From assembly GCA_002686955.1 (NCBI GenBank), contig NYZA01000007.1, positions 1-8,141 on the forward strand: a stretch of DNA of 8,141 bases, given 5' to 3'. Shown here in pieces: positions 1 to 8,141 of the stretch. This DNA comes from Gemmatimonadota bacterium (lineage in GTDB: Bacteria > GCA-2686955). A program made the position numbers and the translations under genes. A model generated the notes under the pieces. It was not told the origin of the DNA. It ran no database searches and saw only the letters and a program-made list of their open reading frames with translations. Every line of letters begins with the position of its first letter. Position 1 is the first letter of the stretch.

Positions 1-3000
1 GGGGGGGCGGGGGCGTGATCGTTCCCGAGGAGATCGAGGAGCTTCATGCTTACGGGATCGATCGGATCTTCAGCCCGGAGGACGGGCGGAGGATGGGGCT
101 TTTCGGGATGATCGATGAGGTGCTTCGCGGCTGCGATTTCGATCCGCTGGGCGGCTCCGAGGGCGATTCGAATGGGCGCGCGTGGGTCGATTTCGGCGAG
201 ATCTTGGGCGGATTGGGCGAGGCGCGCGGGCTGGCGCGGGCGATCACCTGCGCGGAACGCTTCGCCGATGGCGAGGGCGATCGCGCGGCGGAGTGGCGAG
301 AGGTCCTGGGGGGCTCCGAGCCGCGGGGACGGCAGGTCGTAGTGGGGATCACGGGGACCGGGGGGGCCGGCAAGTCGACCGTGACCGATGAGCTGATCCG
401 CCGTTTTCTGGGCGATTTTCAGGAGCGTCGCGTGGCGGTGCTCGCGGTCGACCCGACCCGGCGGAGGACCGGAGGGGCGCTGCTCGGCGACCGGATTCGG
501 GTGAACTCGGTTGCCGCCCTGGCGCCGGAGGGGAGCGGGCGGACCTACTTCCGCAGCATGGCCACGCGGGCGTCGAATCGGGCCACGAGTCGGGCGCTAC
601 GCGATGCGATTCGGCTGGCGCGGCTGGCCGACTACGACCTGATTCTGGTCGAGACAGCGGGGATCGGGCAGAGCAACAGCGAGATCGTCGAGCACGTCGA
701 TCTGACGGTCTATGTGATGACCTCGGAGTACGGCGCGGCGACGCAGCTCGAGAAGATCGATATGCTCGATCTGGCCGATCTGGTGGTTCTCAACAAGTAT
801 GAGAAGAGGGGGGGGGAGGACGCGCTTCGAGATGTCCGGAAGCAGATCGAGCGGAACCGGGCGCCTGGTGATGGGGCGGCGCTTGCTCCGGTTTGTCCCA
901 CGATCGCGAGCCAGTTCAACGATCCGGGGACGGCGCGCCTTTACGCCGAGCTGATCGCTGTGATCAACGAGCGGACCGGTGTCGATTGGAAGAGCGGGGT
1001 GGTCGCGGAGGAGGGCGATCCGCGGCAGGCCGAGCTGATTCCGGCGGAGCGGGAGCGCTATCTGGCGGACGTGGCCGACGCGCTTGAGACCCACGGAGGG
1101 TGGGTGCGGGAGCAGGCCGAGCGGGTGCGCCGGGTCGATCGGCTGGAGCATGCTCTCGAAGAGATTGGGGAGGGGGCCGAGGGCGCCGACTCGATTCGCG
1201 AGAAGCTCGAGGAGATTCGGGGCGGCGTCGATCCGCGGGCGAGTGCTGTGCTCGATGAGTGGGAAGGGATCGCGGGCCAATACGGTGAAGACGAGCTCAT
1301 TGCGAAGGTGGGGGAGAGGGAGCTGCGGACGCCGCTGCGCCGGGAGTCGCTCTCCGGTTTGCCGATCCCCAGGGTTGCTTTGCCCACCTTTTCCGATCCC
1401 GGGGACCGGCTCGAGTGGCTGATGATGGAGAATCTGCCGGGCCGTTTTCCCTTCACGGCGGGTGTCTTTCCCTTCAAGAGGGAGGACGAGAATCCGACTC
1501 GTATGTTCGCGGGCGAGGGGCCTCCTGAGCGCACGAATCGTCGCTTCCACTATCTCTCGGAAGGGCAGCCCGCCGCGAGGCTCTCGACCGCCTTCGATTC
1601 GGTGACACTTTATGGGCGCGATCCCGAGGAGCGTCCCGATGTGTTCGGCAAGGTCGGCAACTCCGGTGTTTCGATCTGCACACTCGACGATGCCAAGAAA
1701 CTGTATTGCGGTTTCGATCTCTGCGCGCCGAGCACGTCTGTCTCGATGACGATCAACGGGCCGGCGCCGACGATGCTGGCTTTCTTCTTGAATGCGGCGG
1801 TCGATCAGCAGCTCGAGCGTTATCTCGTGGAGGCGGGGCGCCTCGATGAGGTGAGGGGGGCGATCGCGGCGCAGTGGCAAGCGAAAGGGATGGAGACTCC
1901 GCGCTACTCAGGTCTCGATTCGCCGCGGGGAGAGCGTGCACTGGGGTTGGCGCTTTTGGGATCGTCGGGAGACAGGTGGGTAGAGGCCGATGTGTACGAT
2001 CGGATTGCTGACGACACATTGACGAAGGTCCGCGGCACGGTTCAGGCCGATATCTTGAAGGAGGATCAGGCGCAGAATACCTGTATCTTCTCGATCGATT
2101 TCGCGCTCCGTCTGATGGGCGATATTCAGGAGGAGCTGATCCGGCGCCGTTCCCGCTATTACTATTCCGTATCGATCTCCGGCTACCATATCGCCGAGGC
2201 CGGCGCCAATCCGATCACGCAGCTCGCCTTCACCCTCGCAAACGGATTCACGTACGTCGAATACTATCTCTCGCGAGGGATGAAGATCGACGATTTCGCG
2301 CCGAGCCTCTCCTTCTTCTTCTCGAACGGGCTCGATCCGGAGTACGCGGTGATCGGGCGCGTGGCCCGCCGCATCTGGTCGGTGGCGATGCGGGATCGTT
2401 ACGGCGCGTCGGAACGGTCGCAAAAGCTGAAATACCATATTCAGACTTCGGGCCGCTCGCTGCACGCCCAGGAGATCGACTACAACGATATTCGCACTAC
2501 CCTCCAGGCTCTGTACGCTTACTACGATAACTGCAACTCGCTTCACACGAACGCCTTCGACGAGGCGATCACCACGCCCACCGAGGATTCCGTGCGGCGC
2601 GCCCTGGCGATCCAGCTCATCAGCCAGAAAGAGCTGGGCATGGCGAAGAACGAAAACCCCTTGCAGGGTGCGTTCATCGTCGATGAGTTGACCCGGATGG
2701 TCGAAGATGCGGTGCTGGAGGAGTTCAGGCGGATCAGCCGGCGCGGTGGGGTGCTCGGCGCCATGGAAACACAGTATCAGAGGGGGAAGATCCAGGAGGA
2801 ATCGCTCCACTACGAGACGTTGAAGAGCTCCGGAGAGCTGCCGATCGTGGGTGTGAACACATTTTTGCGAGACGGCGCGGGGGCGGAGGAAACACCCGAG
2901 CTGGCTCGTTCGACCGAAGAGGAGAAGAGGGCGCAGCTCGAGAATCTGAGGGCGTACCAGGCGAAGAACGGCGATGAGGCTCCCGGCGCTCTCAGTCGCC

Positions 3001-3128
3001 TTGCGAAGGTCGCCTCGTCTGGGGAGAATATCTTCAGAGAGCTACTCAGGACCGCGCGGGTGGCCTCGTTGGGGCAGATCTCCAACGCGCTTTTCGAGGT
3101 CGGTGGACAGTACCGTCGATCGATGTAG
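1..3128 (+). CDS. icmF: Fused isobutyryl-CoA mutase IcmF, 5'-truncated by the window edge
   Basis: Adenosylcobalamin-dependent mutase interconverting isobutyryl-CoA and n-butyryl-CoA, fused to its own G-protein chaperone. The frame is open to the left edge (codons from position 3 read Gly-Gly-Gly-Gly-Val), so the GTG at 15 is internal and the true start lies upstream. Residues below count from that GTG. Residues 1-40 are the tail of the B12-binding domain ([20 protein letters not shown]); its cobalt-ligating DxHxxG motif would lie outside the window. Residues 107-320 are a MeaI-type GTPase with Walker [10 protein letters not shown] (114-122), ETAGIGQ (213-219) and NKYE (260-263) in place of NKxD. 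Residues 450-1037 are the TIM-barrel mutase: [10 protein letters not shown] (478-487), GYHIAEAG (723-730), HIQTSGRSL (808-816) and the family C-terminus ending GGQYRRSM. F485 and Q687 occupy positions that are Tyr and Arg in methylmalonyl-CoA mutase, which supports isobutyryl-CoA specificity. About 90 N-terminal residues are missing compared with known IcmF proteins. Identification is firm; substrate is inferred. Confidence 0.95.
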
Positions 3129-3132
3129 GAGA
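3127..3132 (+). promoter_or_regulatory. Ribosome-binding site of the B12-binding subunit gene
   Basis: AGGAGA overlaps the icmF stop codon (TAG at 3126-3128) and lies 6 nt before the GTG at 3139. This spacing favours GTG 3139 over the in-frame ATG at 3148, which would be 15 nt away. It also rules out the longer reading that runs back into icmF in another frame. Placing the site on the icmF stop suggests translational coupling. Confidence 0.75.
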
Positions 3133-3138
3133 AATGTT

Positions 3139-3570
3139 GTGTCGGAAATGCCTGATATAGCGCCGATCCGGGTCTTGATCGGAAAGCCCGGACTCGACGG
3201 TCACGACAGAGGGGCCAAGATCGTCGCCAGGGCGCTCAGAGATGCCGGAATGGAAGTGATCTACACCGGCCTGCATCAGACCCCCGAGATGATCGTTTCG
3301 GCGGCGCTCCAGGAAGACGTGCAGGCGATCGGCCTTTCGATCCTCTCCGGCGCGCACCTGACGCTCTTCGAACGAACGAAGAGTTTGATGGATGAGCGGG
3401 GGTGTGGTGACATAATTCTATTTGGAGGCGGGATCATTCCTGGAGACGATGCGGAGGCGCTCGTGGCGATGGGAGTCGACGCCGTCTTCACTCCCGGCAC
3501 GCCGACCGGGAAGATCGTCGAGTATGTGAAGGCAGCGGTCGAGGAACGGGCGGAGAACGGGGCTTCGTGA
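3139..3570 (+). CDS. Free-standing cobalamin-binding subunit of a methylmalonyl/isobutyryl-CoA mutase
   Basis: A 143-residue single-domain Rossmann-like B12 carrier for a two-subunit acyl-CoA mutase. It shows the full base-off/His-on signature. DGHDRG (20-25) carries the His22 lower cobalt ligand, GLSILSGAH (65-73) holds the SxL segment contacting the dimethylbenzimidazole tail, and FGGGIIP (95-101) is the glycine-rich loop. The [12 protein letters not shown] segment and TGLHQTPE (43-50) are shared by McmA2-type and IcmB-type subunits, so the sequence alone does not tell methylmalonyl- from isobutyryl-CoA mutase, and no symbol is given. Length is typical for the separate small subunit. The GTG start is set by AGGAGA at 3127-3132. 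It begins 10 nt after icmF and its TGA overlaps the meaB GTG (GTGA, 3567-3570), so the three genes look co-translated. No large catalytic partner other than the already fused IcmF is visible, so its partner must be encoded elsewhere or be IcmF itself (less likely). Confidence 0.93.
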
Positions 3571-4517
3571 AGATCGATCAGCTCGCGCGGGCGGTGCTCG
3601 AGGGGGAGCCGCGGGCCTTGGCTCGTGCCATCAGCGTCGTCGAATCGGGCGCCGAGGGGGCGTCCCATTTGATTGATCTGCTCTACCCGCACTCCGGAGG
3701 GGCGACGACGATCGGGGTGACAGGGGCGCCGGGCGCGGGCAAATCGACGCTGGTGGACCGATTGATCGAGGGGCTGCGTGCCGAAGAGAAGAGTGTCGCC
3801 GCGGTGGCGATCGATCCATCGAGCCCCTTCACCGGGGGAGCGCTTCTGGGGGATCGGGTGCGCATGATGCGCCACCACGCCGACGATGGCGTGTTCATCC
3901 GCTCGATGGCGAATCGTGGCCGTTTCGGAGGGTTGGCCCCCACGACGAGATCGGTGGTACATCTCCTCGACGCGGCGGGCTTCGATGTCGTGATCGTGGA
4001 AACGGTCGGTGTGGGGCAGGCGGAGGTTTCGGTCGCCGGGAGCACCATGTCGACCGTGCTGGTGCTGGTGCCTGGCCAGGGCGACGCGATCCAGGCGCTC
4101 AAGGCCGGCGTGATGGAGGTGGCGGATATTTTCGTGGTCAACAAGGCGGACCGCGAGGGGGCGGATCGCATGGTGTCGGCGATCGAAAGCGTGCTCCAAC
4201 TAGCCGATCCGCTCCCCGATCGGACCCCGCCGGTGCTGCGGACCTGCGCGACGAGGGGGGATGGGATCGCTCCACTCTTGGAGGCACTGGACGGCCATCG
4301 GGCGTGGTTGAGAAAGGCGAAGAGGCTACAGGACTTCCGCATCGCCGCCGCGGAAGAGGAGCTGCGCGATGCGCTCGGCCATCATCTGACCGACCGGGCC
4401 ATCGCGGCCCTTGACGAGAAGGAGGCCTGGATCGAGCGGCTGGCTAGCCGAGAGGTGGCGCTGCCGCGCTTGATCCGAGTTGCCGTGAGAGCGATTCGGG
4501 ACGCCCCTCGACCTTGA
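3567..4517 (+). CDS. meaB: MeaB/ArgK-family GTPase, mutase chaperone
   Basis: G3E-family P-loop GTPase that gates adenosylcobalamin delivery to acyl-CoA mutases and helps eject inactivated cofactor; cytoplasmic. The 316 residues match the family length. Motifs in order: Walker [10 protein letters not shown] (53-61), the [18 protein letters not shown] switch I region (83-100), [14 protein letters not shown] (112-125), ETVGVGQAE switch II/Walker B (145-153), and the canonical base-recognition motif NKAD (192-195). The C-terminal part (about 255-316) is helical and matches the region used for dimerisation in this family. The GTG start at 3567 gives a 4-bp GTGA overlap with the preceding B12-subunit stop; GGAG at 3552-3555 is a plausible ribosome-binding site. 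Because IcmF carries its own fused GTPase, this separate one probably serves the mutase that uses the free-standing B12 subunit (inference). ArgK/YgfD is a synonym for the same family and does not imply arginine transport. Confidence 0.95.
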
Positions 4518-6011: not shown

Positions 6012-7997
6012 ATGGACCGGTTCAACCTCGAAGCGGACTTCAGCCCCAGTGGAGATCAGTTGCCCGCCATCGAAGCGTTGACGAGCGGGTTGGAAGAGGG
6101 ACGTAGCGACCAGACGTTGCTGGGCGTGACTGGCAGCGGCAAGACATTCACTGTCGCGAACGCGATCGCTCGCGTGAATCGACCCACGCTCGTGCTTTCG
6201 CCGAACAAGACGCTGGCGGCGCAGCTCTATGGAGAGTTCAGGGCCTTCTTTCCAAACAATGCAGTCGAGTATTTCATCAGCTACTACGACTACTATCAGC
6301 CGGAAGCGTATCTTCCGACGACCGATACGTACATCGCGAAGGACGCATCGATCAATGAACAGATCGACCGACTGCGTCTGCGTGCAACCGCTTCGCTGCT
6401 CACCCGCCGAGATGTGATCGTCGTCGCATCGGTCTCGTGCATCTACGGGATCGGCGATCCCTCGATGTACAAGGAGCTGCTCCTGTTGCTCTCGATCGGA
6501 GAGGGGATCGATCGCGACGAAATCCTTCGGAAATTGATCGAGATCCAGTACGAAAGAAACGACGTTGAGCTCTGCCCGGGTCGCTTCCGTGTTCGCGGCG
6601 ATGTGATCGAGGTCGTGCCGAGCTACGATGAAGTCGGCGTTAGAATCGAGGTGTTCGGCGATGAGATCGAACGTATCTCTCGTTTCGAGCCTTTGACCGG
6701 GAAAGTGTTGCAGAAGATCGATAAGGTCGCGATCTATCCGGCGAAACATTTCGTGACGAGCCATCGGCGATTGGAGGCGGCGACGGCGGCGATCGAAGAG
6801 GAGCTCGCGGAGCGGCTCGAAGAGCTCGAAAGCGGCGGAAAACTGCTCGAAGCCCAACGGCTGCGCACCCGCACGCGCTACGACTTGGAGATGTTGCGCG
6901 AGCTCGGATACTGCTCCGGGATCGAGAACTACTCGCGGCATCTCTCCGGCCGCGCCGCGGGCGAGCGGCCTGCCTGCCTTCTCGACTTTTTCCCCGACGA
7001 CTTCCTCATGGTGATCGACGAGTCGCATGTATCGATCCCGCAGGTCGGGGGGATGTTCAAGGGGGATCGTTCACGTAAAGAGACTCTGGTCGAGCACGGA
7101 TTTCGGCTTCCGTCCGCCCTCGACAACAGGCCGCTGAACTTCGAGGAATTCGAGGTGCAACGGGGGCAGGCGATCTATATCTCGGCAACTCCGGCCGACT
7201 ACGAATTGGGGCGTTGCGGAGGACGGATTGTTGAGCAGATCATCCGCCCAACTGGGCTGATCGATCCGGATGTGAGCGTGAGACCGACCAAGGGGCAGAT
7301 CGACGACCTGTTGCGAGAGATCGGAGTACGCACGGAGCGCAAGGAGCGGGTGCTCGTTACTACGCTCACGAAAAGGATGGCCGAGGATCTGACCGACTAC
7401 CTGAACGACCACGGTGCAAAGGCCCGCTACCTTCATTCCGAGATCGACGCGCTCGATCGGATCGAGCTGATTCGAGACCTTCGTCTCGGTCTCTTCGATG
7501 TGCTGGTCGGAATCAACCTCTTGCGGGAGGGGCTCGATCTACCGGAAGTGTCGCTCGTGGCGATTCTGGACGCGGACAAGGAGGGTTACCTGAGAAGCAC
7601 ACGCTCTTTGATCCAAACCTCGGGGCGTGCGGCGCGAAATGTGGACGGCTCGGTCGTCATGTACGCCGATTCCGTGACCGGATCGATGCAGGCGGCGCTG
7701 AACGAGATGGAGCGCAGGCGGGCGAAACAGCTGGAACACAACCTCACCCACGACATCGAACCCCGTTCGATCGTACGCTCCGTGGAGGATCTATTGAAAA
7801 CCGGTGCTCTGGGCGGGGAGAAACAAGTACGAAAAGGCGCGCCGAAACGGGCCGAGCGCCGGCCGGGACAGACCGACGCTCAGCTCATCGTGCGGCTCGA
7901 TGCGGAAATGCGCCGCGCCGCGGAAGCGCTGGAATTCGAGCGGGCCGCGATCCTGCGCGACCAACTGGCGGCGCTTCGCGCGTCGATCAGTAGGTGA
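6012..7997 (+). CDS. uvrB: UvrABC excinuclease subunit B
   Basis: Damage-verifying helicase-like subunit of nucleotide excision repair. It receives DNA from UvrA, inserts a beta-hairpin to test the lesion, and recruits UvrC for incision; cytoplasmic. The 661 residues are full length for the family and intact. Visible elements: Walker A GVTGSGKT (38-45); the beta-hairpin region with [12 protein letters not shown] (91-102), [11 protein letters not shown] (105-115) and [10 protein letters not shown] (120-129); DESH Walker B box (336-339); the C-terminal helicase motifs [13 protein letters not shown] (503-515) and TSGRAARN (536-543); and a C-terminal UVR domain (about 622-657) for UvrC contact. 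ATG 6012 fits the usual family N-terminus. It lies 5 nt after the lipoprotein stop, with no recognisable Shine-Dalgarno sequence (at best CGAG at 6000-6003), so translation probably depends on ribosomes finishing the upstream gene. It ends with tandem stops TGA TGA (7995-8000). No LexA-type operator was recognised nearby. Confidence 0.98.
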
Positions 7998-8044
7998 TGA
8001 CTAGCCCGCATTTCTCACCAACTTTCGTCGCGAGGCGGCGCAGA

Positions 8045-8141
8045 TTCGTTCCCTGGCGGTGCTTCGCACCGTTTCGCGCGGAGGCGTGCTGGTTGCACGT
8101 CGCACAAAGCGAAACGGGGGGAAGTGCTGCCAGGGTGCGGA
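8045..8141 (+). repeat. Long imperfect inverted repeat / candidate structured RNA or MITE-like element downstream of uvrB
   Basis: The left arm (8045-8077) is the reverse complement of the right arm (8109-8141) at 25 of 33 positions. Exact blocks are CCCTGGC with GCCAGGG (8051-8057/8129-8135), CTTC with GAAG (8062-8065/8121-8124) and CCGTTTCGC with GCGAAACGG (8069-8077/8109-8117). An inner stem (8083-8089/8095-8101, one G-U pair) closes the 5-nt loop TGGTT. Five of the eight differences between the arms become G-U pairs in plus-strand RNA; the remaining three are true mismatches. No run of T follows within the window, so an ordinary intrinsic terminator is not supported. The pairing reaches the last base, so the element may continue. 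It could be a structured RNA, a REP/MITE-type mobile repeat, or an atypical terminator. The 47 bp between uvrB and this repeat (7998-8044) show nothing recognisable. Confidence 0.6.

Follow-up and report, generated by a model that had tools for sequence, protein, structure and literature searches.

The window, that is, the whole 8,141-nt stretch of DNA analysed here, corresponds to C7, one of 270 contigs in its assembly, and stops where that contig does, at position 8141. Its first part (3-4517) holds, in this order and as read from the sequence by eye, what we take to be an IcmF-like fused GTPase/acyl-CoA mutase, a stand-alone B12-binding-like ORF, and a MeaB/ArgK-like GTPase. The plus-strand uvrB gene (6012-7997, called from its ORF and codon usage) is the upstream neighbour of the repeat element described below and lies outside it. 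Three bases past the uvrB stop codon begins the tetranucleotide CTAG (8001-8004), the left member of a 4-bp target duplication of the YTAR class that is identical on both sides of complete copies; for the window copy, the right CTAG lies beyond the contig end. Next to it on the plus strand is a left terminal inverted repeat of IS1380 type, CCCGCATTTCTCACCA (8005-8020), identical to both ends of an insertion sequence (IS) at L240. This is followed by a conserved, structured core (8021-8141, plus strand), recognised through complete copies and through R1, a covariance model of the interior only (ends left out), which matched at G000:C7:8045-8141 (E 8e-16).

Within the core, the 5′ internal-loop motif CGTMGCGAG (8026-8034, plus strand), near invariant over 85 cores, precedes a plus-strand hairpin with a 5′ arm at 8045-8077 and a 3′ arm at 8109-8141 that ends with the contig. 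Arm-to-arm pairing comprised 25 Watson-Crick, 5 G-U, no A-C, and 3 mismatched pairs, exactly the figures that an earlier note on this DNA had claimed for two 33-nt arms, and the nested inner stem that it described was located at 8083-8089/8095-8101. The latter belongs to the plus-strand apical hairpin GGCGTGC-TGGTT-GCACGTC (8083-8101), the helix of which is 95% paired over the 85 cores and includes a conserved G-U wobble at 8084/8100. The better fold claimed for plus-strand RNA was likewise recovered: positions 8030-8141 folded at -69.8 kcal/mol as the plus strand (z -5.6, none of 200 dinucleotide shuffles being as good) and at -47.0 kcal/mol as the minus strand. The 1-in-32 odds attached to that preference do not stand as independent evidence, because the pairs are shared by descent among about 60 copies, but the underlying G-U point survived a test on the divergent family (see below). 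The suspicion that the feature continues past the window edge was borne out, in that the element starts at 8005 and would reach about 8180 and, because the contig stops at 8141, the window holds just the first 137 bp of its 176 bp. What the window copy lacks is the right terminal repeat and roughly 23 bases of the core, and CGCAGYAG, the partner of the CGTMGCGAG motif, also falls past the contig end.

Repeat copies and IS1380-type ends

A whole-genome search with the hairpin, as the earlier note had proposed, returned 41 DNA matches in the element's own genome, many of them at contig ends. The terminal-repeat pattern had 48 + 42 matches there, compared with 5 + 2 for a reversed control pattern, the covariance model had 58, and copy number is about 60. 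Aligned copies define a complete element of 176 bp, CCCGCATTTCTCACCA...TGGTGAGAAATGCGGG, the ends of which (CCCGCATTTCTCACC) lie between 4-bp direct YTAR duplicates that are CTAG, TTAG, or CTAA and identical on both sides of each element (e.g., TTAG/TTAG at L010 and L083, and CTAA/CTAA at L004). Subfamilies, and chimeras between subfamilies, were present in this genome. Many contigs, including that of the window, end inside a copy, and the element thereby explains a good deal of the assembly's fragmentation.

On sequence grounds, the element is a multi-copy, non-autonomous transposon (MITE) with IS1380-type ends. Specifically, it is short (176 bp) and non-coding with terminal inverted repeats of 16 bp or more, it has the target-site duplications given above, and a matching autonomous transposon, the IS1380-family IS at L240, exists in another, gammaproteobacterial genome. 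That IS encodes an IS1380-family transposase (PF13701, E 3e-156) and has the exact end, CTAG followed by CCCGCATTTCTCACCA, on both sides, 1.74 kb apart. The element shares with it the terminal repeats and the YTAR flank; however, the element is without a transposase gene, its interior is unrelated to the L240 IS from just inside the ends, and that interior occurs with other ends too. Beyond this pair, a scan for YTAR-CCCGSATWTCTCACSA in one genome per species found at least 116 stretches in many phyla, often as inverted pairs separated by about 50-400 bp.

No IS1380 transposase gene was found in the element's own genome, the assembly of which is 84.5% complete and breaks at repeats. We infer from the ends that an IS1380-family enzyme mobilises the element; such a DDE transposase would recognise the ends, act in trans, and duplicate the YTAR tetranucleotide. 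IS1380 transposases form the prokaryotic outgroup of piggyBac, the target of which is mostly TTAA, with TTAG and CTAA among its variants (PMC10813416), and the YTAR duplicates here are in line with a piggyBac-like target preference.

Several loci in the host genome and elsewhere differ from the complete form. Core-free mini-elements of about 46-56 bp, composed of two ends back to back and in some cases keeping intact target duplications, were seen at L086 (G000:C261:1755-1818), L087 (G000:C109:23305-23368), L142, L165, and L168, the versions on C261 and C109 being 56 bp long. Given that such versions exist, the core seems to be dispensable for transposition. At L017 (G000:C191:8598-8712), the 5′ arm has given way to a reverse-complement copy of the 3′ arm (GCAGCACTTCCCCCC), an arm-to-arm conversion. 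Several copies in the host genome are directly adjoined or interrupted, mostly at the same junction, by a second repeat family (GGAGCCTGTTGCGCATAGACTTTCGAGCCC...), which lies in the flanks of copies on C29, C57, C109, C155, C244, and C249. Additionally, L315, L319, L320, and L321 of the same genome form a further subfamily with ends GAGCCCGCATTATTCACCG and core AAACGCGTMGCGAG...GCGTAGTAGCGTTT.

The conserved core, its distribution, and its ends

A plain DNA search of 59 other genomes found no match to the element, a null result attributable to sequence divergence, since the RNA model does find the family elsewhere. Neither DNA search nor covariance model found the element in the one same-family genome examined. 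Viral contigs gave no match to the single exact version of the apical motif that served as query, nor did plasmids match two elements, and phage or plasmid cargo was set aside on the queries tried.

The covariance model built from homologues, another check that the earlier note had put forward, recovers the family across phyla with covarying pairs. R1 matches were found in 30 of 369 gammaproteobacterial genomes, in 42 of 297 genomes from the phylum of a Holophagae genome, in 24 of 198 from the phylum of a Deltaproteobacteria genome, in 17 of 199 from the phylum of a Planctomycetota genome, and, as weak matches, in 2 of 190 from the class of an alphaproteobacterial genome. At E <1e-6, the respective numbers are about 25, 36, 14, 13, and 0, and the last group therefore serves as a background check. 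Gammaproteobacteria, Acidobacteriota, and Planctomycetota are among the groups represented by these matches. Many genomes have at least ten copies, and in G768 one contig, no shorter than 3.7 Mb, carries 15. Elements from different phyla have in common a left-hand CGTMGCGAG, a right-hand CGCAGYAG, and a GCRGGC...GUCGAG hairpin at the apex, while GACCGAGG/GACCGAG is found in the middle of many elements and is absent from the window's subfamily. The least secure assignments to the core family are L387, L395, L396, and L397. They are comparatively short palindromes whose weaker, shorter matches fall mainly in the apical part, where the motif resembles GCGGAGGCGTAGCNNNGCTACGCCGCACAAG; ends of GGTTGTTCAAAAA and GCAGGCTGCTCAAAAA type close L395 and L396.

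At least ten kinds of ends, unrelated to one another, were found around the core. The majority of the cores examined are bounded by IS1380-type ends, of which several sequence variants occur. Other kinds of ends include GGTTCTGTTGACATTC (L281 and two further copies in its genome), AATCCTARAAWCCTCAGTT (L285), AAGCACTCCYTGTTCA (L288), AGAGCCTGTGAATGA (L293), AGAGCTCGTGAAAC (L298), GGAGTCTTAGGTTCGCGGT (L361), GAGCCAGTTTCATAACC (L409), AGGCTCTGTTYAGAARC (L411), AGGCTCTGKCTGGYAATCC (L415), and GGCTGCGGRGTCCGCA (L351), and others exist. In G689, two kinds of ends occur within one genome.

The earlier note had recognised no family, and Rfam agreed: at the gathering score it contained none for the element, the only hits being two tRNAs nearby, and lax thresholds gave nothing relevant to the hairpin or core, such that a known Rfam RNA was discarded as an identity. 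Nearly all copies lie outside predicted genes, which disposes of coding sequence as a candidate and of a conserved protein-coding gene at this position, which the note had named as grounds for refutation. No paper in the open literature was found to contain the sequence or to describe an IS1380-ended MITE of such kind, although a description in a subscription paper is possible. It is well supported that the core crosses phyla, covaries, is strand-specific, travels with different ends, and stands outside Rfam. The interior is a separate, conserved structured module of about 144 nt and not a worn-down piece of the IS.

Strand asymmetry, gene neighbourhood, and competing readings

Across the 85 cores, 87.9% of pairs were standard compared with 60.4% after shuffling, both sides had changed in 44 of 45 pairs, and the covariation score was 0.700, against 0.218 when shuffled and at most 0.129 when slid. 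These are the compensatory changes that characterise a conserved structured RNA; strand is nonetheless the sharper test, because palindromes can covary as DNA, and covariation of a palindrome can also arise by arm-to-arm conversion, of which one copy (L017) is an instance. The strand-specific preference for G-U over A-C was found as well. G-U pairs numbered 415 and A-C pairs 69 over the 85 cores, a set assembled by RNA-model search, a method that favours G-U; a symmetric arm alignment gave a smaller G-U excess, 469 to 320 with loop positions included. The second pair of the apical helix was G-U in 64 of the 85. When the cores were collapsed at 70% identity into 36 clusters, which have common ancestry, the plus strand folded better in every one (mean -79.4 vs -62.0), with G-U exceeding A-C in 31 clusters and A-C exceeding G-U in two. 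Elements found by DNA pattern alone had the same strand preference (seven of the seven folded), and 18 core-free control MITEs that have the same ends showed an unsigned asymmetry of 0.040, compared with a signed 0.113 kcal/mol per nt for the cores.

From these sequence patterns we infer that the plus strand of the core acts as RNA. The reading that we favour, and regard as probable, is a 176-bp MITE with IS1380-type ends that carries a separate, cross-phylum core selected as a one-strand RNA fold. One strand would be made as RNA, and selection on its fold would retain the core. The earlier note had offered a selected RNA structure and a mobile palindrome as alternatives, and both were largely right, given a covarying, strand-biased core between IS1380-type ends and duplications.

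The strand-specific fold could instead be used as single-stranded DNA, during excision or replication and with no RNA, as in REP/RAYT systems with Y1 transposases or attC. With DNA energies, too, the plus strand folds better in all 36 clusters, which leaves room for selection on single-stranded DNA, and substrates of that kind, e.g., REPs (PMC3733652), typically combine strand choice with conserved unpaired motifs. However, the ends belong to a DDE transposase with 4-bp duplications, a Y1_Tnp profile detected no Y1 transposase in 5 of 15 carrier genomes, several of which are copy-rich, and RNA accounts more readily for the conserved G-U wobble and the G-U excess; we consider this route unlikely, if still worth reckoning with. 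Much less credible is an ordinary decaying MITE, the palindrome of which would stem from its origin and arm-to-arm conversion with no selected core. Stable hairpins are common among MITEs (PMC10969869) and L017 does show one arm overwritten with the other's complement, but the unpaired loop motifs hold constant although the median identity of the cores is just 48%, the same core occurs between unrelated ends, and same-end MITEs without the core show no such strand asymmetry. The covariation, cluster-strand, and control-MITE results strongly disfavour decay.

Regarding the genomic setting, gene neighbours taken from a simple codon-usage gene caller placed most copies just downstream of stop codons. 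In the host genome, the left gene was + in 17 cases and - in 13 relative to the copy, and the right gene was - in 18 and + in 6; thus, genes that run into a copy number 17 for its plus strand and 18 for its minus strand. The corresponding counts for other genomes were 22/14 (left gene) and 20/23 (right gene), with 22 genes running into the plus strand and 20 into the minus. The earlier proposal of an RNA made in the uvrB direction and tied to uvrB is not supported by these counts: copies occur in both orientations near genes, the uvrB direction is therefore incidental, and the lack of orientation bias does not speak for a cis action within neighbouring mRNAs. A gene-specific cis role of the element is unlikely. 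Complete copies end in ...GCGGGCTAG, followed by unrelated flank, which upheld the claimed absence of a T-run and removed an intrinsic terminator (GC-rich hairpin plus T run) from consideration. A cis-acting 3′ element of the host, recruited behind uvrB and other genes to terminate transcription or stabilise mRNA, is the least credible account of all, for although copies cluster at gene 3′ ends, as do REP and ERIC elements, which affect transcripts (PMC3733652, PMC10969869), the T-run is missing, orientation shows no bias, no particular gene is linked, and 3′-end placement is equally expected from avoidance of gene or promoter damage.

Among known systems, the closest kinds are MITEs in general, the definition of which fits the element, and REP palindromes, the definition of which does not. 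Bacterial MITEs that have been reviewed include Correia/NEMIS, ERIC, RUP, Nezha, Chunjie, and QMITE (PMC10969869). Like these, the element is short, non-coding, foldable, and of high copy number, with terminal repeats and target duplications; unlike them, its core occurs in several phyla, with conserved internal loops, a fixed strand, and varied terminal repeats. To our knowledge, each of the six named has been described for one species or narrow group only. REPs are 20-40 bp long with a GTAG or CGTC tag, and some REP dimers lie inside longer palindromes (PMC3733652). The element resembles REP/BIME with RAYT as a multi-copy extragenic hairpin near gene 3′ ends with conserved unpaired motifs, but was rejected as RAYT/REP on size (176 bp), tag, and transposase, having transposon ends and duplications and no dependence on a Y1 transposase. 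CORE-SINEs are eukaryotic non-autonomous elements in which a conserved module is combined with different ends. Retrozymes, also eukaryotic and non-autonomous, are built around a conserved RNA module (PMC4918200). Both resemble the element in being non-autonomous with a conserved RNA module, putative in our case, but they move through RNA, whereas the ends of the element point to DNA transposition.

Returning to the favoured RNA-selected core, its conserved internal loops look like protein-binding or tertiary-contact sites. We hold only weakly, as a rather doubtful extension, that the core RNA has a partner in the host, a conserved RNA-binding protein or ribonuclease; once bound, it would help the element persist, e.g., by shaping transcripts that run through it. 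Somewhat easier to entertain, though short of probable, is an undescribed RNA module, several phyla old, that is carried by available DNA transposon ends and has a specific RNA-level host function. If true, this would be a bacterial counterpart of core-sharing SINEs. Bacterial MITEs are usually regarded as insertion-sequence leftovers, and an interior that is constant between variable transposon ends reverses that picture. An anonymous repeat would become an RNA open to testing, one with defined loops that is present at high copy number and in many natural variants.
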